Below are positions 33,830-50,978 of a DNA stretch of 64,000 nt, one piece after another. Numbering within the stretch: position 1 is the stretch's first letter; each line of letters begins with the position of its first letter. Where the stretch lies: the NCBI GenBank assembly GCA_938041955.1, contig CALISD010000088.1, forward strand, positions 1 through 64,000, read 5' to 3'. The translations under genes were made by a program, and so were the position numbers. The notes beneath the pieces were generated by a model. That model ran no database searches. It had not been told where the DNA came from and saw only the letters and a list, made by a program, of their open reading frames with translations. This DNA is from an uncultured Granulosicoccaceae bacterium (GTDB lineage: Bacteria; Pseudomonadota; Gammaproteobacteria; Granulosicoccales; Granulosicoccaceae).

Positions 33830-34311
33830 TAGTAACTCACCCCTTGCTTCATGACGAGACCATTGGTCTTGAGCGTGTGAATATCCCCTTCATCAAAGCG
33901 AATATACTTTGGCTCGTTGAACAATAACTCACTGTCGCGTTGTTCCTGCGTAGGTGGCTCCACGTCACGTAGCTGCGGTGTACCCGAACCCCACGGCTTA
34001 GTGGTGATGGGTGCCAGCAGGTCAATATCTTTCTCACCGTTGCGGGACTTGATACGCCAGGCAATTGTGCCTTTTTCTTCATCGCGCTTGACACGAACTG
34101 AGTGCCCGAGCGGCGCGAAATCAGCGTAGCCGCGAACGTCAATGGCTTGATGAGGGCATGCTTTTACGCAGGAGTAGCACTCCCAGCACATGTTGGGTTC
34201 AATGTTGTACGCGCGGCGAGTGACTGTATCGATGTGCATGATATCTGATGGGCAAATATCGACGCAGTGACCACACCCGTCACAACGAGTCATATATACA
34301 AAAGTTGGCAT
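33829..34311 (-). CDS. aprB: Adenylylsulfate reductase, beta subunit
   Basis: A 160-residue electron-transfer subunit with two [4Fe-4S] cysteine sets: Cys10/13/16/20 (CDGCGHCVDIC) and Cys42/45/48/52 (CWECYSCVKAC). The C-terminal ~100 residues form the tail that wraps AprA in known structures (GSGTPQLRDVEPPTQEQRDS region). It sits between aprM (34 bases upstream) and aprA (1-base overlap), the order aprM-aprB-aprA. Confidence 0.95.
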   Translation of the reverse strand: MPTFVYMTRCDGCGHCVDICPSDIMHIDTVTRRAYNIEPNMCWECYSCVKACPHQAIDVRGYADFAPLGHSVRVKRDEEKGTIAWRIKSRNGEKDIDLLAPITTKPWGSGTPQLRDVEPPTQEQRDSELLFNEPKYIRFDEGDIHTLKTNGLVMKQGVSY

Positions 34312-34345: not shown

Positions 34346-35194
34346 TTAGAAGTGACGAGGGGCTTCGCGCTTGATGCCGAGACCCATGTTGGGAGGATTG
34401 GTACCCATGTACTCAGGGATATCCGGAAACCGTGCCTGCACTGCAGGATCTGAAAGATCGAAATCATCGGGCAAATTCTCTCTTGAACCATCTGCATGGG
34501 CAACCTTCTTCTGAAATGCCGCCGCTGGCTTGAAGAACATATGTGCGAACTTGGACCAGTAGACGCTACCGAACAAGACGGTAGAGCTCAGGATGAACAG
34601 TGCAAAGAAGAACATTGAAACTGCTCCGCCAACCAGTTGCGAAAACGACCACAACAGGCCAAACGTGGCCATGCTGAGCAGACCAAGAATGAACAGATCA
34701 CCACGACCGTTGAACTGGTTCCATTTAACTCCTGCCGATGCCACATCAACACGGATAGAAAACCAAAACCAGTAACCACCAATACAAAGCAGGATAGCGC
34801 CGAGGTGCCACAGCAGGTTAAGCAGTACCGGGGCATCCGTACCGCCTGTATAAGAAAAGATCAGGATCGCAGAGGTGACCACGAACAAAATAAACCCGTA
34901 CATGGTGCAAAGGTGCGAGAGTCGACGGCGGCTATTGCAGAATTCAGATGAAGTGAGTACCTCACCTGCCACTGTCTTCACTACCAGACCTGCCTTCTTG
35001 GCACTCCCGACTTTACGGCTAGCGCCTTCCTGAGCCTTTTTGGAATTCGCAAAAAAATATTTGGCGCTTTGCTTGTGAACCATATCAAGCACAGTTCCGC
35101 CGATGACCAGCAGTATCATCAGGACGACGTAGGCCTTCATCACGCCCGGCGATATGGACATCGCCAGCTCGGCAAATGGGTTGTTTATTAACAT
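34346..35194 (-). CDS. aprM: AprM-type membrane anchor for APS reductase
   Basis: A 282-residue integral membrane protein with about six hydrophobic segments, starting MLINNPFAELAMSISPGVMK after an AGGA site. The SRRRLSHLCTMYGFILFVVTSAILIF block near residue 89 resembles heme-binding, narG-gamma/HdrE-like membrane subunits. It is directly upstream of aprB. In sulfur-oxidising bacteria that lack qmoABC, AprM is the proposed route for AprBA electrons into the quinone pool (established proposal). The middle (residues 45-75) is lysine-rich and cytoplasmic. Confidence 0.85.
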   Translation of the reverse strand: MLINNPFAELAMSISPGVMKAYVVLMILLVIGGTVLDMVHKQSAKYFFANSKKAQEGASRKVGSAKKAGLVVKTVAGEVLTSSEFCNSRRRLSHLCTMYGFILFVVTSAILIFSYTGGTDAPVLLNLLWHLGAILLCIGGYWFWFSIRVDVASAGVKWNQFNGRGDLFILGLLSMATFGLLWSFSQLVGGAVSMFFFALFILSSTVLFGSVYWSKFAHMFFKPAAAFQKKVAHADGSRENLPDDFDLSDPAVQARFPDIPEYMGTNPPNMGLGIKREAPRHF

Positions 35195-35902: not shown

Positions 35903-36421
35903 TCAGTGCGTAGCAGCCGATTTAATGCGCTCAATTTTCAGATCAACGCTGACAGGCCTGCGGATGTCATCAAGCACCGGGCAGTGCCGGTTAACAGCCT
36001 GCCTCAGACGCTCTATTTCATCATCTGACGCATCGCTCTCAATGGCAATGGTTCCAAATATTTCGCTAAATCCGGCCGGCGTATTTTCATCAAGAGAAAA
36101 AAAGCCCTTGGCATCTGATACACCCGTTACCGAGACCGCAACGCTATCAAGAGCAATATCCATCGCATCGGCGTAAAGCCGGTAAGTCACCTCATGGCAA
36201 GCCGCCAGCGCTGCCAACACATACTCACTGGGTCGGGGCCCCTGATCGGTGCTTTCCATGTTGGCGGGTTGATCAACAATCACTTCGAAATCTCTTACCT
36301 TCACATGGCTGCGAAAAGCCTCTACCAGCTTGCTTTGGGCAGTTACCTGGACACGGGTTTTATCAGGCCTGTTGCGTAGTATTGACTGCTTGTGCTCGAA
36401 CACTTTTTTGAAATTTGTCAT
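35903..36421 (-). CDS. OsmC/Ohr-family peroxiredoxin-like protein
   Basis: A 172-residue cytoplasmic protein of the OsmC fold. It carries RPSEYVLAALAACHEVTYRLYA near residue 63 with the first conserved cysteine, and NRHCPVLDDIRRP near 142 with the second. These two cysteines reduce organic hydroperoxides in characterised members. Some OsmC-like proteins act instead on thiol or sulfur intermediates. Its place between the sulfonate importer and aprMBA is suggestive, but a general stress role is equally possible. Confidence 0.87.
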   Translation of the reverse strand: MTNFKKVFEHKQSILRNRPDKTRVQVTAQSKLVEAFRSHVKVRDFEVIVDQPANMESTDQGPRPSEYVLAALAACHEVTYRLYADAMDIALDSVAVSVTGVSDAKGFFSLDENTPAGFSEIFGTIAIESDASDDEIERLRQAVNRHCPVLDDIRRPVSVDLKIERIKSAATH

Positions 36422-36717: not shown

Positions 36718-37605
36718 CTAACCCGCTCGTTTGGAATACGCATCCAGAAAATCAGCTGCCGCCTTACTTCCGCCAGAAAAGGATTTCATTGCTTCTTCAT
36801 GCAACAGCGTCATCACCTCCTTTTTTATCTCATTGGCGCGCGGGTTGTGCACGAGGTCTTCGATCTTGCGTGGTCGTGGTATATCAATATCAATCACCGT
36901 CCGCGTACTGGTGGGCAGGTTGGTCATAATAAGCAGGCGGTCAGCCAGAAATATCGCTTCATCGATATCAGTGGTAACAAAGAAATTGGTGTTGCGATCC
37001 TCCTCGTAAAGTGTGGCGTAGTATTCCCACATCAATTCTTTTGACATGTTGTCGAGACCACGAAACGGCTCATCTAATATCATGACTTCGGGTTTGTTGA
37101 TCATGGCTCGAGCCAGTTCAGCCCGACGTTGCATGCCGCCTGACAGCTGGGTGGGATACTTATCTCTGAAAGCTTCCAGACCAACCTTTGCGAGTAGAAA
37201 TTCTGCCTGCTCCGCGGCTTCTTTTAACCCTTCACCGCGTGCCCTTGGTCCGTACATGATATTGTCATAGGTTGTCATCCACGGAAACAAGGCCGATTCC
37301 TGAAACAACACCAGGCGATCTTTACCTGGCCCGACGATCGGCTCACCATTCATAGTGAGTTGTCCGCTATCAGCACTCTCGAAACCCGCTATCAATTGTA
37401 TGAGTGTGCTTTTTCCACAACCCGAAGGCCCGATCATGACCGTCAGCTTGTTGCTTTCTATGGTGAACGAACAATCTTTAATGACCGTCTTCGCAAACGG
37501 TCCTGCGCCATAGGTTTTATTAAGGTTACTTGCCACAATTTCACTGGCTTCCTGAACTCTGGCTCCCGCGCCTGGCACCACTGTGTCTGGAGAATATGTA
37601 TTCAT
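36718..37605 (-). CDS. ABC importer ATPase 2 (nitrate/sulfonate/taurine type), H-loop altered
   Basis: A 295-residue nucleotide-binding subunit. It has Walker A GPSGCGKST (59-67), Q-loop Gln102, canonical signature LSGGMQ (154-159) and Walker B VMILDE with Glu179. The switch histidine is missing: residues 209-214 read FVTTDI, with Thr212 where the family has His. Its partner ATPase 1 has the histidine but a degenerate signature, so the two look complementary and probably pair as a heterodimer. It is the last transporter gene, 8 bases after permease 2. Confidence 0.92.
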   Translation of the reverse strand: MNTYSPDTVVPGAGARVQEASEIVASNLNKTYGAGPFAKTVIKDCSFTIESNKLTVMIGPSGCGKSTLIQLIAGFESADSGQLTMNGEPIVGPGKDRLVLFQESALFPWMTTYDNIMYGPRARGEGLKEAAEQAEFLLAKVGLEAFRDKYPTQLSGGMQRRAELARAMINKPEVMILDEPFRGLDNMSKELMWEYYATLYEEDRNTNFFVTTDIDEAIFLADRLLIMTNLPTSTRTVIDIDIPRPRKIEDLVHNPRANEIKKEVMTLLHEEAMKSFSGGSKAAADFLDAYSKRAG

Positions 37606-37612
37606 AATATTG

Positions 37613-38437
37613 TTATCTTGTTTTTAGCCAAGGGGTAAAAAAACCACCGAGTTGCCGCAATAGTTCGCTACTGAAGTACCCGGCAATGCCGATGCTGATC
37701 ATGCCGACAATAATCTGCTCGTATGACCCACCCACATATGAACTCCATATAAAGAAGCCAAGGCCACCACCTGCCCCACCCCCTGAGCTACCACCGCCGG
37801 AAATCATTTCTGCTGCCACCACCACCTCCCAGGTAATGCCCATGCCAACTGCAGATCCGACCACAATCGAAGGCAGAGTGGCAGGTAAAACAATCCTTCG
37901 AAAGATATCCCACTGCGATGCCCCCATCGATTGTGCAGCTTGTAAGTACTGTTTATTAATGGACCTTGCACCGCCGAGAACATTAATAACGATCGTATAA
38001 AAAGCGCCAAGAAACGTAACAAATGCAATCGATAATTCCTGGGTTGGCCAGAATATGATTGACGCAGGTACCCACGCTAATGGCGGAATCGGACGCATGA
38101 TTTCAAAAGTCGGGAAGTAAATACCGTAGAAGGTTTTGTTGACCGCCATAAACAAACCCAACGGAATGCCAATCGCCATGGCGGCCAAAAATCCGCCAAA
38201 CACACGCAGAAAACTCATGTACCAGCTTTGCCAGTAGCTCGGATCGCCAATCAGCCCTGCCCAGCTTGCCGCCACATCAGTGGGCGGTGGTATCAGCCCA
38301 AGATACGGCATGCGAAACCCTAACCATTGTTCGGAACGCGCACCTACCTCCCAGATAAGAATGAATACAGCAATCGCAAATAGTCCACGCAGCGTTGCCC
38401 GGCTAAATAGTTTGCCTATAAACCTGCCTTGTTTCAT
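37613..38437 (-). CDS. ABC importer permease 2 (nitrate/sulfonate/taurine type)
   Basis: I start it at the ATG at 38437 (MKQGRFIGKLFSRATLRG), 8 bases after the ATPase 1 stop and behind a purine-rich site, giving 274 residues. Upstream in-frame starts would lie inside ATPase 1. About six membrane helices are present, with the ATPase-contact EAA loop YLQAAQSMGASQWDIFRRIVLPATLP. A glycine-rich insertion, SGGGSSGGGAGGGLGFF, follows near residue 220 and is absent from permease 1. That asymmetry fits a heteromeric channel. Confidence 0.88.
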   Translation of the reverse strand: MKQGRFIGKLFSRATLRGLFAIAVFILIWEVGARSEQWLGFRMPYLGLIPPPTDVAASWAGLIGDPSYWQSWYMSFLRVFGGFLAAMAIGIPLGLFMAVNKTFYGIYFPTFEIMRPIPPLAWVPASIIFWPTQELSIAFVTFLGAFYTIVINVLGGARSINKQYLQAAQSMGASQWDIFRRIVLPATLPSIVVGSAVGMGITWEVVVAAEMISGGGSSGGGAGGGLGFFIWSSYVGGSYEQIIVGMISIGIAGYFSSELLRQLGGFFTPWLKTR

Positions 38438-38444
38438 TTTCCGC

Positions 38445-39350
38445 TTACCCCTCTTTTTCACCGGCGTCGAAAGCCTTCTGCGCCTCTTCATGAACAACGC
38501 CTTTTGCCTCAAGCATGATTTCGCGAAATCTGCTTGAGGTCAGCACGCTGTAATCTCGCGGATGAGGTATATCAACGTCGACGATCTTCTTTGGCTTGCA
38601 GGGACGAGACGACATAATGATCAGCCGGTGGCCAAGAAAGATGGCCTCTTCCAGGTCATGCGTTATAAAGAAAATAGTCACTTTATTGCGGTAGTAAATT
38701 TCCAACAAGGCCTCATGCATTACCGATTTGGTCAGTGAATCAAGCGCCCGGTATGGCTCATCAAACAGTAGGACTTTTGGATCGTTCATCAACGCACGAA
38801 CAATTTCCACGCGACGACGTAATCCTGAAGACACCTCACCCGGGTAATTGTTTTCAGTGCCACTTAATCCGGCATCCGCCATCATGCTGCGGGCTTTATC
38901 GTAGATTTCACTTTTGCTCAGCTTGCCTGCCATCAACGGGCCAAAAGCAATATTTTCAAGGTTCGTTTTCCACGGAAACAAAGCACCGTTCTGGAACACC
39001 ACTATTCGATCAGAGCCGGGTGTGGCCTCAGGTTTTCCCGGGCCACACAGAAGTTCGCCATCAAGATGTATAGAGCCCGACGTGATGTCATGAAAGCCGG
39101 CTATCGCATTCAGCAGCGTTGTCTTACCGCAACCTGACGGGCCGACAATCATGCAGATTTCACCTGCAGGTATATCAATCGAGCAATGATCGACAGCCAT
39201 TACTGCTGCGCCGTCGGGATCATAGATCTTGACAACATCATCTATACAGATTGCGCCCTTTGTTACTTCAGGAGCAGCTCTGCCCGCCACGTCTGAATCT
39301 ACCTTTGCAGAGTCATCAGCAACAACCTTTCGATCTAACACCTCGCTCAT
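38445..39350 (-). CDS. ABC importer ATPase 1, degenerate signature motif
   Basis: A 301-residue nucleotide-binding subunit with a 30-residue polar N-terminal extension. Walker A GPSGCGKTT (70-78), Q-loop Gln120, Walker B VLLFDE (193-198) and switch His231 (ITHD) are intact. The signature that should read LSGGMQ is VSSGLR (173-178). Only its own Walker side should therefore be fully functional, and only when opposed by the normal LSGGMQ of ATPase 2. It lies 3 bases after permease 1. Confidence 0.92.
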   Translation of the reverse strand: MSEVLDRKVVADDSAKVDSDVAGRAAPEVTKGAICIDDVVKIYDPDGAAVMAVDHCSIDIPAGEICMIVGPSGCGKTTLLNAIAGFHDITSGSIHLDGELLCGPGKPEATPGSDRIVVFQNGALFPWKTNLENIAFGPLMAGKLSKSEIYDKARSMMADAGLSGTENNYPGEVSSGLRRRVEIVRALMNDPKVLLFDEPYRALDSLTKSVMHEALLEIYYRNKVTIFFITHDLEEAIFLGHRLIIMSSRPCKPKKIVDVDIPHPRDYSVLTSSRFREIMLEAKGVVHEEAQKAFDAGEKEG

Positions 39351-39353
39351 GCG

Positions 39354-40241
39354 TTAATCTCCTAAGGCGAGTTCACGCACTCGCCATTGCATTAAATAAT
39401 CACCTAAGACACGTACCATGGCACTGCTTGCAAAACCGACAATTCCAAGTGTGATCATGCCGATAATGATTTTCGGGTACTCAACCATCATGTACGAGGT
39501 ATTGATTAGATACCCCAGACCAAATTGACCCGACACCATTTCACCAGCCACCAGTGAAAACCACGCAACGCCTATAGATATCTGCAGCCCGGTAAAAATG
39601 TAGGGCATAGCACCCGGTATCACGACATGTCTAAATACCTGCCACCGACTTGCCCCCAGGCAACTGGCGGCACGACTGTACGATTCATCAATCGATTCAA
39701 CGCCAAGCATGGTGTTAAGTGTTGTGGCAAAAAACGAAGCCAGAAAAGTCAGGAAAACCACCGGAGATTCCGAACCTGCAAAAATAATAATGGCAAGCGG
39801 CACCCAGGCAAGGATTGGAATCGGGCGCAACACTTCAAACAGTGGAAAGATAAATTCGCGAAAAGTCTTCGACCAGCCCAGAAACAAACCCAACGGCACA
39901 CCCAATCCGGTAGCAAGAAGAAACGCATAAGCAATGCGTCGCAAACTGATTCCGATATGCGTGTAGTACTCCGGCGTGTAAACAGACAATCCGTAAATAG
40001 GATCTTTGTTAAACCACTCACCAAACACCTCTGTCAGACCGGGCATATCCTCAAAGCGCGGTAACTTCCATACTTCAACCGCCAGATACCAAAAGCCAAG
40101 CACAATAGCAAACCCGATGAACATCAAGTAGGGTCGCGGGCTCTTCAACCAGGTCGACAGGCGATACATGGTCAAACCCATGGTAGTCACTTCCGGACCT
40201 TGTGACGTAGCCGCATCAGTATTTAGCACAGTGTCATGCAT
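39354..40241 (-). CDS. ABC importer permease 1 (nitrate/sulfonate/taurine type)
   Basis: A 295-residue inner-membrane subunit with about six helices and the EAA loop YSRAASCLGASRWQVFRHVVIPGAMP near residue 190. A 35-residue soluble N-terminus precedes the first helix (YLMFIGFAIVLGFWYLAV). It is separated from the binding-protein gene upstream by 183 bases holding a strong hairpin, and from ATPase 1 by 3 bases. Confidence 0.9.
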   Translation of the reverse strand: MHDTVLNTDAATSQGPEVTTMGLTMYRLSTWLKSPRPYLMFIGFAIVLGFWYLAVEVWKLPRFEDMPGLTEVFGEWFNKDPIYGLSVYTPEYYTHIGISLRRIAYAFLLATGLGVPLGLFLGWSKTFREFIFPLFEVLRPIPILAWVPLAIIIFAGSESPVVFLTFLASFFATTLNTMLGVESIDESYSRAASCLGASRWQVFRHVVIPGAMPYIFTGLQISIGVAWFSLVAGEMVSGQFGLGYLINTSYMMVEYPKIIIGMITLGIVGFASSAMVRVLGDYLMQWRVRELALGD

Positions 40242-40424: not shown

Positions 40425-41570
40425 TTATTCGGGGTAAGCCGAGTCCGGCTGAGCCATCATTTTTCCCACTGGCGCTGTCAATCCGCGCTCCTTTAAAATT
40501 GCTTCGGTAAATCCCTTCTCTATCGCGTTGTCACGCAGGGTGTCCACCTTAATCGTTTTAATTGAGTGCAGAAATACAGTAGCTTTGTCGATCAATTCTT
40601 GAGCAGTGGGAGTGATCGCAAAAGCCAGCTCATTACGAACAGGCGTACCACCCTGTGATTCCGGCGTACTTCCGACCATCGCCTTCCAAAGCACCTTCTT
40701 GTCAAAGCCGGTAGTTTGCTCTTCGGCCATGGCCACTACCGCCATCGTATTGGCCGGGTCTGCCATAAACAGTTGCGCGTCAAGTTCTGCCTTCAGCCAG
40801 GCCTCAACCACATCCGGCCGCTGGTCAATCAGGTCACCTCGCATATCGATGAAACCACCATCGTTTTCATCAACCGACGCTCCCGATGCCACCTTGCGCG
40901 CCAGACCTTCCTCTACCAAACGAGATGCAGTTGGCTCCCAAATCGCTGCAGCGTCTAGCTTGCCGGCGCGAAACCCACTGGTAATAACCTCAATGTTCTG
41001 ATTGAGATAGCTCTTTGGCTGAATGCCTTTTTTCTGAAACACTGCCAGTGCAAAACGATCCGTGCAAGCGCCTTTAGGAACTGCAACAATCTTACCGTCC
41101 ATCCACTGAATAGCTTCGTCAGCGTCAGCAAACTCTGGCGCATCATTTCTAACCAGCATATTGTTGCACTGGTCGAAGCCTAAACCAGCGGTTGCGACAA
41201 TTCGAATGTCTGCTACCCGATCTTTTGTGGTTGCAACGATAGCTGGCATATCGCCCATGTAGCCAATGTGTTGCTTTCCTGCGAGCATCGCATTAACGAT
41301 AATGCCGCCCTGCAAACCAATCTGAAATTCTACTGTTGAGCCCTCAGGTAAATACTTTTCGTAGAGCTTCAGGCCCTTCATAATGACACCGGACCATGCC
41401 TCGGTATAATACGGCTGATAGCCGACAACGAGGTTAACCGGATCACCAATCTCACCATAATCAAGTTCTGCGGCTGACGCCGATGAAGTGTAACCTGCTG
41501 TTGCGATACTAACAGTGGCAACCATTGCCAACGCTATACGTTGTTTAACTTTCTGTATTTTCTTTAACAT
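40425..41570 (-). CDS. Sulfonate-type ABC solute-binding protein
   Basis: Periplasmic binding protein, 381 residues, with a signal peptide ending near SASA-AELDYG. The mature start GEIGDPVNLVVGYQPYYTEAW and the block GKQHIGYMGDMPAIVATTKD are typical of SsuA/TauA/NrtA-like proteins. It heads the importer operon and probably serves the msm oxygenase. MsmE of methanesulfonate users is of this class (established). A decayed copy of its N-terminal half lies directly upstream. Confidence 0.92.
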   Translation of the reverse strand: MLKKIQKVKQRIALAMVATVSIATAGYTSSASAAELDYGEIGDPVNLVVGYQPYYTEAWSGVIMKGLKLYEKYLPEGSTVEFQIGLQGGIIVNAMLAGKQHIGYMGDMPAIVATTKDRVADIRIVATAGLGFDQCNNMLVRNDAPEFADADEAIQWMDGKIVAVPKGACTDRFALAVFQKKGIQPKSYLNQNIEVITSGFRAGKLDAAAIWEPTASRLVEEGLARKVASGASVDENDGGFIDMRGDLIDQRPDVVEAWLKAELDAQLFMADPANTMAVVAMAEEQTTGFDKKVLWKAMVGSTPESQGGTPVRNELAFAITPTAQELIDKATVFLHSIKTIKVDTLRDNAIEKGFTEAILKERGLTAPVGKMMAQPDSAYPE

Positions 41571-41641: not shown

Positions 41642-42091
41642 TTACGACCAGATCGACACCGTTAAACGGTTAGCATCTGGTACATCGTTGTGAAAAAGGA
41701 AAATGTTAGAATGTTGTATTGACGTGCCGAGAGCTCCTACAATTTTCATGTCGGTACCACGTCGTTGTTTGAAAATTCGACTGATGGCAGTATTGGCGGG
41801 CATGTCACCCCTGTAACCGGAGTGATATTTTTCTATAACCATCGTTCCTGCATCAGCAGTACAACGAAGTCCTGCCCGAATCACTAGTGTGAAGTTTTCA
41901 AGCGGACATACTCTAGACGTTGGAAGGTTATCGTTGACTGCTACAGGCCATGCTTGTGTGTCGCACGGAAAGTAAGCAACCGCTTTATTTGCTGGCCGCC
42001 CTGCTTCTCCGATATCAACCCCTGCACGCGCTGGCGCAACGATGGTTGTCGCCAGGAGTGCCGCACCTACGATAACTGATCGTACTTGCAT
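41642..42091 (-). pseudogene. Decayed N-terminal copy of the sulfonate-binding protein
   Basis: A 149-codon frame with a signal peptide (MQVRSVIVGAALLATTIVAPARA). It still follows the neighbouring binding protein: GEAGRPANKAVAYFPCDTQAW against GEIGDPVNLVVGYQPYYTEAW, then a GYRGDMPAN block against GYMGDMPAI, and FHNDVPDAN against VRNDAPEFA. Many core residues are changed and it stops near position 149 of about 380, so the C-terminal lobe is missing. I read it as the remnant of a tandem duplication. A small expressed fragment is possible but would not bind ligand. Confidence 0.75.
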
Positions 42092-43013: not shown

Positions 43014-43595
43014 CTAATCATAGTTAAATACATCTGGCCTCGGATCAGAAATAAATCCATCCTGATTCGGCATCTCAACCTCCGGTAACGACTTAGCATC
43101 AAGCGTTGCAGTTTTATCAATGATATTCGCCTCACCCAACAAATAGGCGACCACCGAGTATATTTCATCATCACTCAAAGAGCCTGGTGCGTTAAACGGC
43201 ATAGCGCGTTTTACATAGTCAAAAACCGTCGACGCATAGGGCCAATAACTTTCAACAGTTTTCTTCGGTTTTCCGCTATCCAAAGAGCCACGACCGCCAA
43301 GCAACGCCGCACCTCCTGTGCCCGCGACACCCGCGAAATCAGCTCCATGACACGCCATACATTTGGCCGCATAAACTTCTTTTCCGGCAGCATGACCACC
43401 ACTACCAGACGGAAGGCCACGTCCGTCAGGCATCACATCAATATCAATAGCGGCAATCTCTTCAGCCGTTGGGGTAGAGCCAAAATCATAGGGACCCGCA
43501 ATAGCCATTGGCACAACGGTAACTGATATGGCCATAGCTACTGCTCCGCACAGCCAGTTTGTTGAAACCGATTTCAACTTAATATTGATGTACAT
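43014..43595 (-). CDS. Periplasmic monoheme cytochrome c partner of the SoxC-like enzyme
   Basis: I start it at the ATG at 43595 (MYINIKLKSVSTNW), preceded by a strong GGAGGT. It gives 193 residues with a signal peptide ending near MAIA-GPYDFG. One heme site CMACH (79-83) and a distal Met in RAMPFNAPG are seen. The start overlaps the SoxC-like stop by 17 bases, showing tight coupling. It resembles the first half of SoxD, which is normally diheme and about twice as long. It should accept electrons from the molybdenum centre and pass them to the respiratory chain. Confidence 0.87.
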   Translation of the reverse strand: MYINIKLKSVSTNWLCGAVAMAISVTVVPMAIAGPYDFGSTPTAEEIAAIDIDVMPDGRGLPSGSGGHAAGKEVYAAKCMACHGADFAGVAGTGGAALLGGRGSLDSGKPKKTVESYWPYASTVFDYVKRAMPFNAPGSLSDDEIYSVVAYLLGEANIIDKTATLDAKSLPEVEMPNQDGFISDPRPDVFNYD

Positions 43596-45006
43596 TGCTG
43601 ACCTCCCCGTTTGCCGCAACCGCCCAGCTTTGGATACCATTAAGATGATAGATAGAGCCGTATTTCCCACCATCTAACCCACGGGCTTGCACTAACTCTT
43701 TGATCGTTGGCTGCACATATCCGGTCTCATCCTGACACCGGCTTTGCAACACAGCCGGCTTACCATCCCACTGCCACGGAAAACGAAATCGCGTGTGGCA
43801 CACGGGCATCACCGGGTTCTGCAATTCAGCTAGCTGCCAGGTGTTACCTCCATCAGCAGACACTTCAACCCGTTTGACTCTGCCACGGCCCGACCAGGCC
43901 AGCCCGCTCACCTCATAGAAACCTGAACCAGGTAATTTCATTTCACCAGAAGGAAAGGTGATTACCGACTTGGCCTCCATGGTAAAAGAGAACTGTCGGG
44001 CTTTGCCTCCCTGCAAAAGATCGGTGTACTTAGAGGTTTCTTCACGCGTCATAAAAGGCTTGTCACTTATCTCTAAACGCCGCAGCCACTTGATGTGAGT
44101 ATTGCCTTCAAAACCCGGTAGCAGCAATCGCAGTGGATACCCCTGCTCTGGTCGAAGCGCCTCACCGTTTTGCGCATAGACCACCATCGCGTCGTCCCAT
44201 GCCTTGTCAAGCGGAACACTTCGGGTCATTACCGCCGCATCTGCACCCTCCGCCAGAATCCATGCGGCGCCGTCCTGTACGCCGACTTCACGTAACAAAG
44301 TCGACAGTGGAACACCCGTCCATTCTGAAGTACTGGTTAATCCATGTGTACCTTGCACTGTTTTTAACGTCGGTTGCCGCCACTCTGTTAGTCCGTTACC
44401 AGAACACTCTATAAAGTGGAATCGAGAGACCGAAGGAAATCGTTTGAGATCTTCCATACTGTACTTCTTTGCACCATTTACCATCCCATGCAAAATTAGT
44501 GAGTGTGTGGCCGGATTTATATTCGGTATACCGCCGTGATGGCGTTCGAAGTGCAGCCCCGAAGGGGTAATAATACCGCTGCTATCATCCAGCGGCGTCA
44601 TGGTCCAGGATGACTCTCTGGTCGCGGTAGGGAATCTGGTTCGGATGGCATCTTCAAACTGGGAGCGGGAGCCATACCCGTCATCATCACTGGTCAAACG
44701 GCCCTGCACCTTAGTTGGATCGTCCTGTACCGGATAATCTATCGAACCGGCAGGCACCGCTGCCCTTGCCGCAGAGGATGTCATTGCTGAAGCACCTACC
44801 GCTGCAGCACCCGCAAGAAATTTCCTGCGAGTAGTCAGGTCAGTTTCATCTGAGCGACTCGAAGGGAACATGCCATCCTTACACTCACAAGCCTCAGCCT
44901 CTTCGCTTTGCCTTCGTCGTTTGCGCAAGGCCTTCTGCTCAGCATCAATCATCCCCTGAATGGTAGATTGCATTTTCTGTTCGTACTCTTTGTCAGTACT
45001 ACTCAT
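43579..45006 (-). CDS. soxC: SoxC-like molybdopterin sulfite dehydrogenase, Tat-exported
   Basis: A 475-residue sulfite-oxidase-fold enzyme. TTRRKFLAGAAAVGA (twin arginines 60-61) is a Tat signal, preceded by an unusually long ~55-residue cytoplasmic extension. The start at 45006 has a good AAGGGG site, while Met46 is a possible alternative start. FHFIECSGNGLTEW with Cys201 provides the Mo ligand, and ITPSGLHFERHHGGIPNI is the SoxC hallmark. In true Sox systems SoxCD oxidises sulfane sulfur on SoxY. No soxYZ, soxAX or soxB is present, so periplasmic sulfite oxidation is the more likely role (inference). Confidence 0.87.
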   Translation of the reverse strand: MSSTDKEYEQKMQSTIQGMIDAEQKALRKRRRQSEEAEACECKDGMFPSSRSDETDLTTRRKFLAGAAAVGASAMTSSAARAAVPAGSIDYPVQDDPTKVQGRLTSDDDGYGSRSQFEDAIRTRFPTATRESSWTMTPLDDSSGIITPSGLHFERHHGGIPNINPATHSLILHGMVNGAKKYSMEDLKRFPSVSRFHFIECSGNGLTEWRQPTLKTVQGTHGLTSTSEWTGVPLSTLLREVGVQDGAAWILAEGADAAVMTRSVPLDKAWDDAMVVYAQNGEALRPEQGYPLRLLLPGFEGNTHIKWLRRLEISDKPFMTREETSKYTDLLQGGKARQFSFTMEAKSVITFPSGEMKLPGSGFYEVSGLAWSGRGRVKRVEVSADGGNTWQLAELQNPVMPVCHTRFRFPWQWDGKPAVLQSRCQDETGYVQPTIKELVQARGLDGGKYGSIYHLNGIQSWAVAANGEVSNVHQY

Positions 45007-45268: not shown

Positions 45269-46330
45269 TCACGCAAATTTGTCGTAGCGAATCTGTTCTG
45301 CTGAAAATCCCTTGCTGCCAACAAGCTCCCGTATCGATGCATCTACCATCGGCGGAGGACCTGCAATAAAAGCCATTGTGTCGGTATCTGCGCGCACAGA
45401 GTTAATCTGCTCGTGCACAAAGCCCCGGGCAATTTTCAGTTTATCCAGTGGTTCTGCTGAGTCACTCGCTATGTCATTACTGCCAACGGCGTCCGCGACG
45501 TCTGACAATGCGATGGTTATTTTCAGAGTGTCCGGGTAAGTCGCAGCAAGCTTTTTAAGCTCGGTCACATAGAACATATCCTGACTTGATCGAACACCAA
45601 AGATCAGATCAACGCTGTGCTTTTCCAGATAACCGATTTGATCTGCCTGCTGTAGCATCGCCATCATACCTGCAATGCCTGACCCTCCCGCCAGTAACAG
45701 TAGATTACGCTGCAACTGTGGTTCAAACACCGCATGTCCGAGCGGCCCAAACAGGGTAACAGCAGCACTGGACAAAGATTTTTCAAACAACCACTCTGAC
45801 ACTTTACCGCCTTTGTACTGCTTTATAACAAACTCAAGTCGGTCAGTGTGAGGCGCATAATTTACCATCGAATAAGCACGTGCACCGTCAACACCCGGCA
45901 ACTGAAGCAATGCAAATTGTCCCGCCTGAAAACTCACTTCATTCTCTAGCGTGATGCAGAAAGACATTACATCGTCGGTCAATTTATTAAAGTCGGTAAT
46001 CGTGCCTGCCAAATGATCAGGTGTTGCCAAATCAGAATCACTTACTGACACCGCAGAAGGAATTCGAATTTCACAATCCGATAGTGCGGAACACTGGCAC
46101 ATCAGAAATTCGCCACGATCAACCTTAAGCGCCTTAAGACCCGGTGCATCGCGCCAACCATAATTCAAAGCACCCGATACCAGCTTAGCCCGACAACTGC
46201 CACAAGTGCCGGTGGCGCATTCATAAGGAACTGTCAGCCGGTTCTGCAACGCCGCGTATAGAATTTTTTCATGCGGGCGACACTGAAAGGTCAGAGGCTC
46301 TCCCGCTTTACGCGATATCGTGATATTCAC
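45269..46330 (-). CDS. msmD: Methanesulfonate monooxygenase reductase component
   Basis: Passes electrons from NAD(P)H to the Rieske ferredoxin. The 353 residues hold an N-terminal plant-type [2Fe-2S] domain with Cys38, 43, 46 and 78 (CATGTCGSC, then MCQC), an FAD domain with ARAYSMVNY near residue 135, and a nucleotide domain with LLLAGGSGIAGMMAML. It is the last of the four oxygenase genes, 33 bases after the ferredoxin gene. Order and sizes match msmABCD of Methylosulfonomonas. Confidence 0.88.
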   Translation of the reverse strand: MNITISRKAGEPLTFQCRPHEKILYAALQNRLTVPYECATGTCGSCRAKLVSGALNYGWRDAPGLKALKVDRGEFLMCQCSALSDCEIRIPSAVSVSDSDLATPDHLAGTITDFNKLTDDVMSFCITLENEVSFQAGQFALLQLPGVDGARAYSMVNYAPHTDRLEFVIKQYKGGKVSEWLFEKSLSSAAVTLFGPLGHAVFEPQLQRNLLLLAGGSGIAGMMAMLQQADQIGYLEKHSVDLIFGVRSSQDMFYVTELKKLAATYPDTLKITIALSDVADAVGSNDIASDSAEPLDKLKIARGFVHEQINSVRADTDTMAFIAGPPPMVDASIRELVGSKGFSAEQIRYDKFA

Positions 46331-46363
46331 ATTGAGTATGAAACGGTATTTATCAGCGGCAAC

Positions 46364-46720
46364 TCAATAGTCGTCATCGTCATCATCTTCGTCGAAATCG
46401 TATTCAAGTTCTTTTTCAAGATTCACCATCACCTGATCACCATCGAGACGAACGTCGTACATTAATATCGGCCGCTCTGCGGGTCCTTTCGCCTCTCCGG
46501 TACGCATATCCCATTGCCATAGATGTTTTGTGCAGGTAAGCACTCCATCAGCACAGATCCCTGACTCATCTAGCGGCTCTTCCATATGCGGACAAACTGG
46601 CGGGTAGGCGCGAAAGCCATCACCCACATTGGCAACAAGCAATGCAATGCCATCCACTTTACACAGCTTTAGTGTTTGTTCTGATACATCCTGAGTAGAG
46701 CAAACCGGTTTCCAGGTCAT
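46364..46720 (-). CDS. msmC: Methanesulfonate monooxygenase Rieske ferredoxin
   Basis: A 118-residue [2Fe-2S] Rieske ferredoxin with Cys43, His45, Cys63 and His66 (CPH, 17 residues, CTKH), the normal spacing. The C-terminus is extremely acidic, ending EYDFDEDDDDDDY, which may dock with a basic patch on a partner. It lies between the small oxygenase subunit and the reductase, as in known msm operons. Confidence 0.88.
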   Translation of the reverse strand: MTWKPVCSTQDVSEQTLKLCKVDGIALLVANVGDGFRAYPPVCPHMEEPLDESGICADGVLTCTKHLWQWDMRTGEAKGPAERPILMYDVRLDGDQVMVNLEKELEYDFDEDDDDDDY

Positions 46721-46821
46721 TGAGTATAACTCTCGTTAGTTCCCGGGCTAATGCCCGGTTATTGATTGAATTGGGTAGCAACCGCCGCAAAAGCAGCCGT
46801 TGTATAAATACGCTTCCAAGT

Positions 46822-47325
46822 CTATATCGGGTAGTGAGACCCCTTGTCCAGTCTTCTGGTATCCAGCTGAACTTCGCGCTCTATAAACTTCACATCATCT
46901 TCATTAACGCGGAACTTATCGCAGTAGCGCCCAACCAGAAACACTTTCGATTCACCGGAATCAACATGGCAATTCACACCATCAAGCATGGTTTGATACA
47001 CCAGCACCGAGGATACAGCGGTGGCAGTTTTATTTTCTTCATCCACCTCAACCTCATACACCGAACAGTGCCTCTTCAACGGCGAATGATCACTATTGTG
47101 TTTAGGTAGCATCTCCATCATGGTGCGCATATCTTCACGATTGCCACTGAGGTACGTCATATTGCGCTGTATTTCCGGGCTATACGCGGTGATAGCATAA
47201 GAGAAATCGTCATCACACAGATTCAGCCATTTCTCCCAGTTCATGTCATCTTTATACATACAAGATTTGTAAACAGCCTCTCGCACAGCGGTTGCCGCAC
47301 TGGCTCTGTCTTTAATTTCAGCCAT
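46822..47325 (-). CDS. msmB: Methanesulfonate monooxygenase small (beta) subunit
   Basis: A 167-residue protein of the ring-hydroxylating-dioxygenase beta-subunit fold (SnoaL-like cone), with a structural rather than catalytic role. Helical N-terminus AATAVREAVYKSCMYKDDMNWEKWLNLCDDDFSYAI, then strands TATAVSSVLVYQTML and KVFLVGRYCDKFRV. It lies 150 bases after msmA with a hairpin in the gap. Confidence 0.85.
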   Translation of the reverse strand: MAEIKDRASAATAVREAVYKSCMYKDDMNWEKWLNLCDDDFSYAITAYSPEIQRNMTYLSGNREDMRTMMEMLPKHNSDHSPLKRHCSVYEVEVDEENKTATAVSSVLVYQTMLDGVNCHVDSGESKVFLVGRYCDKFRVNEDDVKFIEREVQLDTRRLDKGSHYPI

Positions 47326-47430
47326 TGTTTATCTTCCCCCAATAATATGAAACTACTCAAGCAGCCCAACCATATGTTGTGCTCCGCTTGTGCCTTGAAC
47401 TCATACAGCGAACATACAAAGCCGAAGATA

Positions 47431-47466
47431 CTGGAACATCGCACAACAATATTCACGATGCTCCAG
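47431..47466 (-). terminator. Stem-loop between msmA and msmB
   Basis: CTGGAACATCG and CGATGCTCCAG pair over 11 positions with one A/C mismatch around a 14-base loop, starting 10 bases after the msmA stop. No T-run follows, so an intercistronic RNA-stability or processing role is more likely than full termination. Confidence 0.45.
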
Positions 47467-47475
47467 TCCTCAGCC

Positions 47476-48750
47476 CTACGCTAAAGCTTCCTCTTTGGAT
47501 TTACTTTCCGCTTTACTCGGCTCCGAAAAGGGCTTAGTCGGGTCACTCGGAGATCTATTCATCCAACGGCCCCATTCCTCGTAAAAATGGCGCATGCCAT
47601 TTTCATCATGAATGGTTTCGTTTTCATGTCGACCATGGAGTATTTTCCTTGGCTCCGCCTGCGCATCCATACTGACCCCCTGCCCGGTAACGGCAAGCAG
47701 ATCTTCATGCAGGTTGCGTCCAAATGGACCCCATATACTATTGTGGTGTTCAATCCGATGGCGTCGTGTGGCTTCATCATCACTCTTAAGTCCAAGGCCG
47801 CGAAACTCAATCATGACCTTGTCCGGCCCCAGTGGCGTCATCAGATCGCATCGAAGCGATGAACCACGCAAATTGAAATTCACCCCCGGAAACATATCGA
47901 TCATGTACCAGTGATTGGGAGGCAAATGAGGAAACGAAATTGCCGCACGCGAATCGAAGCCTTCGTAGTTATCGTACTGAACTTCAAAACTACCGACGTT
48001 AATATGGCCATTGTCAAAGCCCATATTCTTACGTGCGAAATACCCATCGTTAAACCCGGTAATGCGATTATGATAGTGAAGATAGTCGTGGTAAAACTCG
48101 CAATTAGTATCGTGCCAAAGCTTGTAATTGCAAGGGATAATCGCCTTGTGATAGTGAAAGATCTCAAGCGGCTCCTCGTCAAGTGATGGTTGCAGACATT
48201 CAAGTGCACCGGCAGACCATTCTTTTACATCCATACCAATATCATCATCCAGGCAGACCCAGATAAAACCGCCGAAATAGACCTCGCACTTAAGCTCCCG
48301 CAATCCAACCTGCGACTTCTTCAATCGATCCTGATAACCCTCCTCCTGACGCGATATGTATACGCAACGACCTTTCATATCAAATTGCCATGCGTGAAAC
48401 ATACAGGTCATATGACGAGGGTTTCCGGAGGGCGAGCCATCTAGAAAAGTGCCTGACGGGCGTCGCTCTATCATGTTGCCTCGATGCGGACAAACATTTA
48501 AAAACGCACGTACCTGCATATCTTTACCACGAACCAGAATAACCGGTTCACGAGCAATAGTTACCGTTCTAAAGTCATAGGCTTTAGCAAGCTCCGACTC
48601 ATGACAGACCGGTATCCAGGCTTTTTTAAAGATCTTTTCGAGCTCTTCCTCAAAAATGCCTTCATCGGAATAAATCCGACTATCAACATACTCATCCGCC
48701 TTAAACGGAGGCGGGGCGTTCCACTCTGCGTGATTTCTGCTTTTTGCCAT
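47476..48750 (-). CDS. msmA: Methanesulfonate monooxygenase large (alpha) subunit
   Basis: Catalytic hydroxylase subunit, 424 residues. It cleaves methanesulfonate with O2 and NADH to formaldehyde and sulfite in characterised homologues. The Rieske ligands are Cys87, His89, Cys116 and His119: exactly 26 residues separate His89 and Cys116. Most Rieske oxygenases have 15-17 there, and X26 is the reported hallmark of MsmA. The mononuclear-iron region is WHDTNCEFYHDYLHYHNR (residues 212-229), with Glu218, His221 and His225/227. The start has a good AGGAGA site and lies 50 bases inside the PanB-like gene. A related short-chain sulfonate remains possible as substrate. Confidence 0.9.
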   Translation of the reverse strand: MAKSRNHAEWNAPPPFKADEYVDSRIYSDEGIFEEELEKIFKKAWIPVCHESELAKAYDFRTVTIAREPVILVRGKDMQVRAFLNVCPHRGNMIERRPSGTFLDGSPSGNPRHMTCMFHAWQFDMKGRCVYISRQEEGYQDRLKKSQVGLRELKCEVYFGGFIWVCLDDDIGMDVKEWSAGALECLQPSLDEEPLEIFHYHKAIIPCNYKLWHDTNCEFYHDYLHYHNRITGFNDGYFARKNMGFDNGHINVGSFEVQYDNYEGFDSRAAISFPHLPPNHWYMIDMFPGVNFNLRGSSLRCDLMTPLGPDKVMIEFRGLGLKSDDEATRRHRIEHHNSIWGPFGRNLHEDLLAVTGQGVSMDAQAEPRKILHGRHENETIHDENGMRHFYEEWGRWMNRSPSDPTKPFSEPSKAESKSKEEALA

Positions 48751-49654
48751 CTTTTTTATCTCCTGTTGCGGATTGCTTAAGACGTGAAGCCCATTTCATC
48801 ATTTTGGCGAATTTTTCAAGCTCTTCATCAGCCATATACACCGTATGTTCAGGCCCCGGATAAGTCTGATCTTTTACGTCAGCCATATACCGCTTATAAA
48901 CATCTTCAATGATAGGGATTAGATCGGTATAGACTTTAGAGTGCCGCGGTAAGTGCTCCTCATATAAGTGAAACAAATCCGAACCGATGATATGAACACC
49001 ATGTGCCTTGTTACCTGCACCCAAACTGATCACCGGGACCGGCAGTGTTTCCGTCAGGTATTCGCATACCTCCTCACTGGTGACTTCACACATTATTGAG
49101 AAGCAGCCGGCATCAACCATTGCATGTGCATCGTCTATGAGTTCTTTCGCTCGATCAGCTGTTTTACCCTGAGCAAAGAAACCACCCAACTGAGGCATAC
49201 GCATGGGTGTAATACCGATATGACCCTGCACTGGAATACCCGCTTTGACAATCGCCTCAATCGCTTTAGCATGATGCTGATTGCCTTCGCACTTCATCAC
49301 TTCGGCATTTGCACGGGCGACAAAAGCGCCCGCATTTTCGACTGCCTGCTCAGGTGAAACATGGAAGCTCCAATACGGCATATCGACCATACGCAAACCG
49401 TATTGGCTACCACGGTCAATGGCCATCGCCATCATCATCACTTCTTCAAACGTTACCGAGACCGTACTCTTGTGACCGAACAACACCATACCGCCGGTAT
49501 CTGAAACACATAGAATGTCCACACCCAGACGATCGGCGATCACCGCATTGCGATAATCGTAGACAGCCAACTGAACTATCTGTTCTTTGTCGCGCATTTT
49601 GCGCTGCAATTCGCGAATCGTAATTTTCTTACGCTTTGTCGTTTTCTCTGCCAC
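48701..49654 (-). CDS. PanB-like ketopantoate hydroxymethyltransferase in the msm operon
   Basis: A 317-residue homologue of PanB, which adds a hydroxymethyl group from 5,10-methylene-THF to 2-ketoisovalerate. Mg2+ ligands are kept (VSDTGGMVLFGH and MVDMPYWSF match E. coli Asp45 and Asp84), as are the catalytic Glu (IMCEVTSEEV, E. coli Glu181) and GHIGITP. A ~35-residue lysine-rich C-terminal tail is extra. The GTG start follows GGGGGAG. First gene of the msm operon, overlapping msmA by 50 bases. No panC/panD is nearby, so it may capture the C1 unit released from the sulfonate (inference). Confidence 0.85.
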   Translation of the reverse strand: MAEKTTKRKKITIRELQRKMRDKEQIVQLAVYDYRNAVIADRLGVDILCVSDTGGMVLFGHKSTVSVTFEEVMMMAMAIDRGSQYGLRMVDMPYWSFHVSPEQAVENAGAFVARANAEVMKCEGNQHHAKAIEAIVKAGIPVQGHIGITPMRMPQLGGFFAQGKTADRAKELIDDAHAMVDAGCFSIMCEVTSEEVCEYLTETLPVPVISLGAGNKAHGVHIIGSDLFHLYEEHLPRHSKVYTDLIPIIEDVYKRYMADVKDQTYPGPEHTVYMADEELEKFAKMMKWASRLKQSATGDKKDGKKQKSRRVERPASV

Positions 49655-49791
49655 TGAACGCTCCCCCTGCCTGCCAGTTTTGATGGGATTGCTGTTCTCT
49701 TACGTGCTTTACGGTGTAAGAGATAAGCAACCTGAGCGTCAGAAGTTACGGTCGCGCCGATACACGGTCAAAATGATTGTGATTATCGCAA

Positions 49792-49846
49792 GATAGACGG
49801 AATCTATCGCAGAGCGAGTTTGATAGGTCTATTCAATAGATTCCGT
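49792..49846. promoter_or_regulatory. LysR-type operator cluster in the lysR/msm intergenic region
   Basis: Nested dyads lie between the divergent starts at 49654 and 50058. GATAGA-N5-TCTATC (49792-49808) contains a T-N11-A LysR box. CTATC-N13-GATAG spans 49804-49826. CTATT-C-AATAG spans 49829-49839. ACGGAATCTAT (49797-49807) is repeated inverted as ATAGATTCCGT (49836-49846). The density of dyads is typical of a LysR activation/repression site. Confidence 0.7.
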
Positions 49847-50057
49847 GTCATAACTGATAACAGATTCTCTGGATTTCAGATGCTCAGGCAACTTTTTGTC
49901 ATACCTGCATTTTCACTTTACTAACTTCAAATCCCGTGTAATGTGTCACTACAAAGGCGGCAATAAAATTTTTATAGCGAGCGCAGCGAACGCAGTAATG
50001 CTTTGTGTGTACGGTATAACTGTAGGGATTGCAGCCCAACGAGAGGAGGAAGACAGG

Positions 50058-50978
50058 ATGTTTCTGCGACAGTTTCACTATGTCGTGGCGCTTGAGCATG
50101 AGTGCCACTTTGGTCGCGCAGCTAAGCGTTGCAACGTATCGCAACCCACGTTGTCGAGTGGCATCAAACAACTGGAAGAAGAGCTCGGCATCCCCATCAT
50201 ACTGCGCCACCAGAAATTCCAGGGCTTTACCGCCGAAGGAATTCGCGTCGTCGAATGGTCAAAACGTTTACTTGCCGACCGCGCCGCCATGGTCGAAGAA
50301 GTTGCGATTATGCGCGACACCATGCATGGCCGACTTCGAATCGGCGCCATGCCGATGAGCTCACCCATGCTGCCGATGGTCAGCAGCTTGTTTTTTTCAC
50401 GCCACCCGCTGGTTCAACTGGATGTGCAGTTTCTGGGATTTGACCAGATGATTCAGGGGTTAAAAAATTTCGAGCTCGATGTCGGAATAACCTACCTGGA
50501 TGATCAGCAACCGCTCGACGGCTACGAAACCATGCCGCTATATGAAAAGAGCTTAAGCCTGTTATTGCCAGATAACGATTGGCTTCCCAATATGACGACC
50601 GCTACCTGGAAGGACGCTGCACAATTACCCCTGTGCCTGCTTTCTCCCTCAATGCATGAACGCCAAATTATGGATGAAGCATTTAGCCAGGCAGGTTACA
50701 CACCGCGGCCGCAACTGGAATCAAACTCAATTCTGCAGTTAGCGTTTCATGTAATGAGTGGCAATATTGCCACTGTTGTACCACAACACTTGAGCCGCAC
50801 AAACAATGTGGTATTTCACGGCACACGTGAAATCTTGTTAAAGGACCCTGTGGTCAGTCAGCAAATCGGCCTCGTATGGGCCAAGGGAACACCCATACAA
50901 CCCATGGCCAAAGCCACTGTATTGTTAATGGAAGAAGCCGCAAGCTCTGGCCTGTTGAAAGAGAACTTCAGTCACTGA
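50058..50978 (+). CDS. LysR-family regulator of the msm locus
   Basis: I start it at the ATG at 50058 (MFLRQFHYVVALEHECHFG), preceded by AGGAGG, giving 306 residues. The open frame upstream adds 54 codons of non-family sequence. The helix-turn-helix is HFGRAAKRCNVSQPTLSSGIKQLEEELG (residues 17-44), followed by a periplasmic-binding-protein-like effector domain. Divergent from the PanB-like/msm operon with clear LysR-type dyads in between. The same half-sites occur upstream of the sulfonate importer region, so it probably controls both. Confidence 0.9.
   Translation: MFLRQFHYVVALEHECHFGRAAKRCNVSQPTLSSGIKQLEEELGIPIILRHQKFQGFTAEGIRVVEWSKRLLADRAAMVEEVAIMRDTMHGRLRIGAMPMSSPMLPMVSSLFFSRHPLVQLDVQFLGFDQMIQGLKNFELDVGITYLDDQQPLDGYETMPLYEKSLSLLLPDNDWLPNMTTATWKDAAQLPLCLLSPSMHERQIMDEAFSQAGYTPRPQLESNSILQLAFHVMSGNIATVVPQHLSRTNNVVFHGTREILLKDPVVSQQIGLVWAKGTPIQPMAKATVLLMEEAASSGLLKENFSH

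Follow-up and report, generated by a model that had tools for sequence, protein, structure and literature searches.

Methanesulfonate (MSA), a sulfur compound common in the sea, is among the major products formed when dimethylsulfide is oxidized, and to our knowledge little is known about what becomes of its carbon in bacteria that lack the classical methylotrophic cycles. This question is raised by a 64,000-nucleotide stretch from an uncultured Granulosicoccaceae bacterium (GenBank assembly GCA_938041955.1, contig CALISD010000088.1, positions 1 to 64,000; hereafter the window), which carries the genes of a presumed MSA monooxygenase, msmABCD, and, as the first gene of the presumed operon, a gene for a PanB-like protein of the ketopantoate hydroxymethyltransferase family (PF02548). 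The host genome, G000 (assembly 93.5% complete), is that of a gammaproteobacterium, Granulosicoccaceae-like by its relatives. What does a PanB relative do in front of msmA? The reading that we favour, with some reserve, is that the locus is an MSA catabolic cassette in which, judging from sequence comparisons, the PanB-like protein would serve as a dedicated transferase of one-carbon (C1) units to a keto acid other than 3-methyl-2-oxobutanoate.

The operon and its first gene

Read on the minus strand from the gap that separates it from a LysR gene, the operon begins with the PanB-like gene (48701..49654; 317 residues from a GTG start; PF02548 at 267.6 bits). This is followed by msmA for the hydroxylase large subunit (47476..48750; 424 residues), msmB for the small subunit (46822..47325; 167 residues; PF00866 at 28.9 bits for a cut-off of 27), msmC for a Rieske ferredoxin (46364..46720; 118 residues; PF00355 at 49.9 bits) and msmD for a ferredoxin/FAD/NAD reductase (45269..46330; 353 residues; PF00111, PF00970 and PF00175), and then by genes for a SoxC protein and a cytochrome c. 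The order, coordinates and sizes of msmABCD given in the original prediction for this DNA are borne out by the open reading frames (ORFs) of the window, as are the Rieske ligands of MsmA, Cys87, His89, Cys116 and His119, with a spacer of 26 residues (C-X-H-X26-C-X2-H; hereafter X26). The same prediction spoke of a complete operon, which is right for msmABCD but overlooked the first gene, whose PF02548 reading frame overlaps msmA by 50 nucleotides. The divergent gene for a LysR-type regulator (50058..50978, plus strand; PF00126 and PF03466) is indeed present; its start had been placed at an upstream TTG (49896) and is moved here to 50058, since the orthologues begin at or near MFLRQF, and its description as dedicated to the operon is a matter of position only.

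MsmA and the X26 clade

Scanned with a sequence pattern, 84,980 species genomes yielded 71 loci with MsmA relatives. Of these, 68 are close (at least 45% identity) and were kept for the counts, the weak matches L083-L085 being excluded; scans by short peptide patterns, here and in the viral collection below, can miss relatives. X26 is found in 67 of the 68 close loci, and in L074 the sequence starts after the first half of the motif. A 17-residue spacer (X17) characterizes more distant MsmA relatives at 38-57% identity (L011, L012, L014, L176 and L177), and G000 holds seven further PF00848 matches, six of them alignable with spacers of 16-18 residues and the seventh (L002) giving no alignment. 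Homologues of msmB and of msmC are each present on 64 of the 68 loci and homologues of msmD on 53.

In a tree of 78 MsmA rows (IQ-TREE; L008, L074, L081, L082, L084, L085 and second pieces left out), the window protein groups with Granulosicoccaceae and then with other gammaproteobacteria. A main clade with support 95/82 gathers 66 of the 68 X26 rows, and the alphaproteobacterial X26 proteins of Filomicrobium, Hyphomicrobium, Methylobacterium and Methylocella lie within it. The identification of MsmABCD as an MSA monooxygenase, as originally proposed, is well supported by the motif, the gene order, the transporter and sulfite-oxidizing genes described below and the place of the window MsmA in the main X26 clade, which also holds Filomicrobium insigne, of the same genus as a proven MSA degrader; MSA is the predicted substrate. 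The msm cassette as such is of an already known kind.

The PanB-like gene travels with X26 msmA

In a class sample of 369 genomes, MSA-type PanB (at least 77% identity, the next best match being at 37%) is found in G000, G055 and G214, exactly those genomes that have an X26 MsmA, whereas G107, with an X17 relative, has none. The six genomes with MsmA in a family sample of 40 are the same six that have MSA-type PanB (called by score band, five of them at the coordinates of loci L015, L016, L017, L019 and L022). In a phylum sample of 398, both genes occur in the same two genomes, G000 and G491, and three more genomes have X17 relatives and no MSA-type PanB. The Fisher p values for this co-occurrence (1.2e-7 for the class, 2.6e-7 for the family and 1.3e-5 for the phylum) assume independent genomes, which these are not; moreover, the three samples overlap, with G000 in all of them, and the X26 criterion, taken from the earlier finding and from PMC4433239 (cited here, like the other papers, from the portions available to us), was applied to the samples after the matches had been seen.

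Along the 68 msmA loci, the PanB-like gene stands directly upstream of msmA on the same strand in 28 and elsewhere on the locus in 11. It was not seen on the other 29, of which 16 extend at least 9 kb on both sides and 13 have a flank shorter than 9 kb. Among the genomes covered by whole-genome tables for PanB and Fae (50 of the 68 msmA loci), 38 of 50 have MSA-type PanB, 36 with their protein in the 109-row tree described below and two (G382 and G383) by score band alone. Finally, over 38 paired loci the MsmA and PanB-like distances are correlated (r = 0.81, a value reached in none of 2000 permutations), with the PanB-like proteins better conserved than MsmA (mean identity 79% and 73%, respectively).

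A distinct PanB clade with conserved catalytic residues

The PanB-like protein falls below both NCBIfam cut-offs for PanB (TIGR00222, 207.0 versus 207.55 bits; NF001452, 245.9 versus 272 bits). In a tree of 109 PF02548 rows, the 47 MSA-linked rows come together (support 100/99) in one clade separate from canonical PanB. The residues aligned to Asp45, Asp84, Glu114, Lys112, His136 and Glu181 of E. coli PanB, which we take to be its Mg2+ ligands, substrate lysine, histidine and catalytic base, are kept in 47 of 47 rows. On the other hand, 29 positions are consistently unlike canonical PanB (at least 90% of the 47 MSA-type rows compared with at least 75% of 40 canonical rows), among them T23A, L42C, G44S, S46T, Q142M, G201S, I202L, Q211V, V214I and F229H. 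The canonical rows were chosen on the basis of their locus numbers and places in the tree (L087-L092, L094-L119, L150-L156 and two PDB sequences, L119 standing for its identical copy L096), and L093, L120-L134, L137-L139 and L146 were left out of the comparison. The sister pair L135/L136 was considered as the same enzyme and rejected, both proteins having an asparagine at E. coli Asp45 (by eye, from the ORFs), and was kept out of the clade.

A predicted model of the PanB-like protein (predicted local distance difference test score, pLDDT, of 68; predicted template-modelling score, pTM, of 0.73) gave 28 top Foldseek matches in the PDB that are all PanB. The protein shares the family, the fold and the metal, lysine, histidine and glutamate residues of canonical E. 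coli PanB (PDB entry 1m3u), from which it differs in its 33% identity by structural alignment, its own clade, the 29 positions and a C-terminal extension. The genomic setting is also unlike that of canonical PanB: neither another PF02548 match nor a PanC match (PF02569) was found in the 93.5% complete G000 assembly. Since G000 shows no other PanB and no PanC, the PanB-like protein is probably not for pantothenate, and pantothenate synthesis was rejected as its role. Many PanB-like genomes also carry a canonical PanB, and a PF02548 match is absent in 21 of the 40 family genomes, some of them incomplete; together with the lack of a PanC or canonical PanB match in G000, this suggests that pantothenate auxotrophy is frequent in the family. 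We argue from the kept metal and base residues that the protein would still activate an alpha-keto acid and add a C1 unit to it, and from the 29 consistent substitutions and the lack of a PanC match that this keto acid would not be 3-methyl-2-oxobutanoate.

Sulfite oxidation, transport and other neighbours

Downstream of msmD on the minus strand lie the genes for a SoxC-type sulfite dehydrogenase (43579..45006; 475 residues; TIGR04555 at 573 bits, cut-off 420) and a c-type cytochrome, the likely SoxC electron acceptor (43014..43673; PF00034 and PF13442), with a 95-nucleotide ORF overlap. Just upstream of msmE stands a sequence (41642..42091, minus; 32% identity to MsmE residues 12-146) that is probably what remains of a second substrate-binding protein of the MsmE-like type. 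The transporter genes, also on the minus strand, encode an MsmE-like substrate-binding protein (40425..41570; TIGR01728 at 92 bits, below the cut-off, the assignment coming from order and homologues), an MsmF-like ATP-binding cassette (ABC) permease (39354..40241; PF00528), an MsmG-like ABC ATPase (38445..39350) and an MsmH-like ABC permease (37613..38512; start perhaps 3′ of the listed TTG), the last two recognized from sequence and conserved order only, and a second ABC ATPase (36718..37605; PF00005 and conserved order). The msm letters were given by gene order, by analogy with Table 1 of PMC4433239. Next comes an OsmC-like protein (35903-36421), which has conserved counterparts next to the msm genes of six further loci (L015-L019 and L022), and then, again on the minus strand, an AprM-like membrane protein named by its position before aprBA (34346..35194; weak QmoC match of 35 bits, below the cut-off), aprB (33829..34311; TIGR02060 at 204.8 bits, cut-off 135.65) and aprA (31946..33829; TIGR02061 at 1111 bits, cut-off 641.75).

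The predicted linkage of SoxC, AprA and AprB to the msm genes is confirmed, all three scoring above the curated cut-offs. The added claim that it makes the locus more complete than the msm operon alone does not point to anything new in kind, given a similar Filomicrobium segment in Table 1 of PMC4433239. Elsewhere, soxC is near msmA in 15 of the 68 loci, TauE is present on 36 (11 of these without a PanB-like gene), and aprMBA, whole or in part, is found close to the msm genes of four further loci (L058, L063, L075 and L076); the link between MSA cleavage and AprBA recurs across loci. A family of about 275 residues without a Pfam match is found near msm genes in 11 loci (e.g. L030:9672-10499), and L179:10158-10985, alike by eye and likewise without a Pfam match, perhaps belongs to it.

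Relatives on viral contigs and plasmids

A two-peptide pattern scan of a viral collection found one MSA-type PanB (L180:7998-8873, on IMGVR_UViG_3300010885_039075) at 67% identity. The contig is 141.7 kb long, and the 16.8 kb examined have endolysin, dCMP deaminase, exonuclease and QueD matches. At 18 of 18 checked residues the viral protein is as the window protein, and in a 44-row tree it branches basally in the clade, next to the divergent pair L135/L136 (92/76). MsmA-like genes are common on viral contigs, with at least 598 confirmed; in all 80 proteins examined (L181-L260) the Rieske CXH/CXXH motif is missing and that of the catalytic domain is retained. Such Rieske-less MsmA-like proteins have already been noted for phage HMO-2011 and in viromes (PMC4433239). 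As for plasmids, MsmA relatives (38-70% identity) are carried by six of 72,556 records, for example NC_011892.1 of Methylobacterium nodulans, and five of the six are predicted to be conjugative.

Comparison with known systems

The msm genes, SoxC, SoxD, LysR and a PanB-like gene have been listed together in one 20.3-kb Filomicrobium segment (Table 1 of PMC4433239, 2015). Filomicrobium strain Y is an MSA degrader, and its '3-methyl-2-oxobutanoate hydroxymethyltransferase' is labelled there only 'C1-moiety transfer'. The window and 'Candidatus Filomicrobium marinum' strain Y have in common msmABCD, msmEFGH, the extra ABC ATPase, SoxC, a SoxD-like cytochrome, LysR, the PanB-like gene and X26. In strain Y, however, the PanB-like gene is flanked by GcvT and SoxC, TauE is close by, and the two msm operons diverge. 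In the window the gene precedes msmA and overlaps it, neither GcvT nor TauE adjoins it, and aprMBA comes after the transporter. With MsmABCD and MsmEFGH of Methylosulfonomonas methylovora M2, as described in PMC4433239, the window shares four components of similar size, X26 and an adjacent transporter; it differs in belonging to a gammaproteobacterium and in having PanB-like, SoxC and apr genes nearby, the comparison with M2 extending as far as msmEFGH. The neighbouring PanB-like gene is mentioned in the available portions of PMC4433239 and not in those of PMC5068391, PMC6003095 or PMC7073904; the subscription literature is mostly uncovered here, and an earlier notice is possible.

A proposed role and its rivals

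In the pathway that we propose, an MsmEFGH-type transporter would import MSA and MsmABCD, a Rieske monooxygenase with its ferredoxin and NADH reductase, would cleave it to sulfite and formaldehyde, the reaction with O2 and NADH that is established for MSA monooxygenase (PMC4433239). Sulfite would be oxidized to sulfate by SoxC and the cytochrome c, possibly also by AprBA, and formaldehyde would enter C1 metabolism. The PanB-like protein would move the released C1 unit, from methylene-tetrahydrofolate or directly from formaldehyde, onto an alpha-keto acid, and may thereby have a role in formaldehyde handling; direct formaldehyde condensation has been described for some PanB variants (PMC7073904). 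Its substrates, the direction of the reaction and its regulation we infer from these comparisons. G000 also has, in one stretch, Fae, Mch, MtdB-like, Ftr-like (below the cut-off) and beta-RFAP-synthase-family genes and a class III formaldehyde dehydrogenase, so the host is equipped for formaldehyde.

We tentatively go one step further: the MSA-linked PanB-like protein might represent an enzyme not described so far, one that adds the C1 unit of MSA as a hydroxymethyl group to a central alpha-keto acid (for example to pyruvate, giving 4-hydroxy-2-oxobutanoate). It would form a natural formaldehyde-assimilation branch outside the serine and ribulose monophosphate cycles, present in many proteobacteria and acquired by a large phage as well. 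This extension is possible rather than probable. The formation of 4-hydroxy-2-oxobutanoate from pyruvate and formaldehyde has been engineered via another aldolase (PMC8879981). In one genome (G413), genes for an HpaI-type aldolase and a D-2-hydroxyacid dehydrogenase lie downstream of MSA-type PanB and TauE (L263:4652-6487); they are a possible hint at the PanB-like product, in that genome only.

Several observations weigh against a dedicated C1 transferase in an MSA cassette. The alpha-subunit tree that had been proposed as a check has two X26 rows, L013 (G055) and L080 (Achromobacter), outside the main X26 clade. L080 joins two X17 proteins, L011 and L014, with 100/100 support, so a long spacer is not by itself the mark of a clade, and the tree rows include no MsmA purified in the laboratory. 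Twelve of the 50 msmA genomes, all with an X26 MsmA, are without MSA-type PanB, and the protein is thus not needed for MSA oxidation as such; most of the twelve are alphaproteobacteria akin to Methylobacterium, Methylopila and Beijerinckiaceae, and they include one gammaproteobacterial metagenome-assembled genome and one Achromobacter. The tetrahydromethanopterin (H4MPT) pathway genes in G000 are another formaldehyde sink. A GcvT-like match (E 1e-30) is absent in G000 and in 22 of 38 PanB-like genomes, which led us to reject GcvT-like as an obligate partner, and formate-tetrahydrofolate ligase is found on only five of the 68 loci, all with a PanB-like gene, adjoining it in two (L054 and L060). 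The PanB-like model is of middling confidence and contains no ligand, and the residue roles are carried over from E. coli PanB. Lastly, the missing panBC genes could be an assembly gap, G000 being 93.5% complete.

The rival that survives best, although rather unlikely, is that the msm cassette is ordinary and that the PanB-like protein captures formaldehyde in a tetrahydrofolate-linked way via a keto-acid carrier, as a tetrahydrofolate counterpart of Fae and H4MPT. Fae is indeed rarer where MSA-type PanB is present: it occurs in 7 of 39 such genomes, counting G000, but in 10 of the 12 msmA genomes that have no MSA-type PanB (Fisher 7e-5). Yet this contrast comes down to three or four independent pairs on the MsmA tree, a number too small for a test, and Fae and the PanB-like gene occur together in G000; a strict replacement of Fae/H4MPT by the PanB-like protein was rejected on these grounds. 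Tetrahydrofolate enzymes adjoin the PanB-like gene in some loci: a GcvT-like gene (PF01571) is directly upstream of it in nine of the ten loci that have both, with a match in 16 of 38 genomes with MSA-type PanB and in none of the 12 without, and formate-tetrahydrofolate ligase also adjoins it in the 2.6-Mb genome G491 (L179). Such a PanB side activity is considered in PMC7073904, where, however, an E. coli panB ltaE double deletion grew like its parent, indicating that neither enzyme captured formaldehyde there.

The operon itself is real, and we regard it as unlikely that the main substrate of its monooxygenase is a small sulfonate or C1 compound other than MSA. Substrates may differ within the wider family, as G055 has three MsmA-like proteins, one X26 (L013) and two X17 (L011 and L014), at 50-57% identity to the window MsmA; near the root of the MsmA tree, X26 proteins are interspersed with X17 ones, and the transporter is only generically sulfonate/taurine/nitrate-like. 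Nonetheless, PMC4433239 states that the long spacer is present in every isolate with proven growth on MSA that it examined, one actinobacterial MSA user with ssuD instead being named in PMC5068391, and sulfite-oxidizing genes and TauE stand near msmA in part of the loci. Very unlikely, finally, is that the PanB-like protein is the organism's own ketopantoate hydroxymethyltransferase for coenzyme A, placed beside msmA by chance: it is a PF02548 member with kept catalytic residues, the sole PanB found in G000 and only half a bit short of one NCBIfam cut-off, but it is below both cut-offs, G000 shows no PanC, many PanB-like genomes have a canonical PanB as well, and the co-occurrence with X26 MsmA in three samples led us to reject a chance neighbour.

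The msm cassette of the window is thus rather complete and of a known kind, and its interest is raised by the PanB-like enzyme, which is a concrete candidate for the C1 step and could serve surveys as a second marker.

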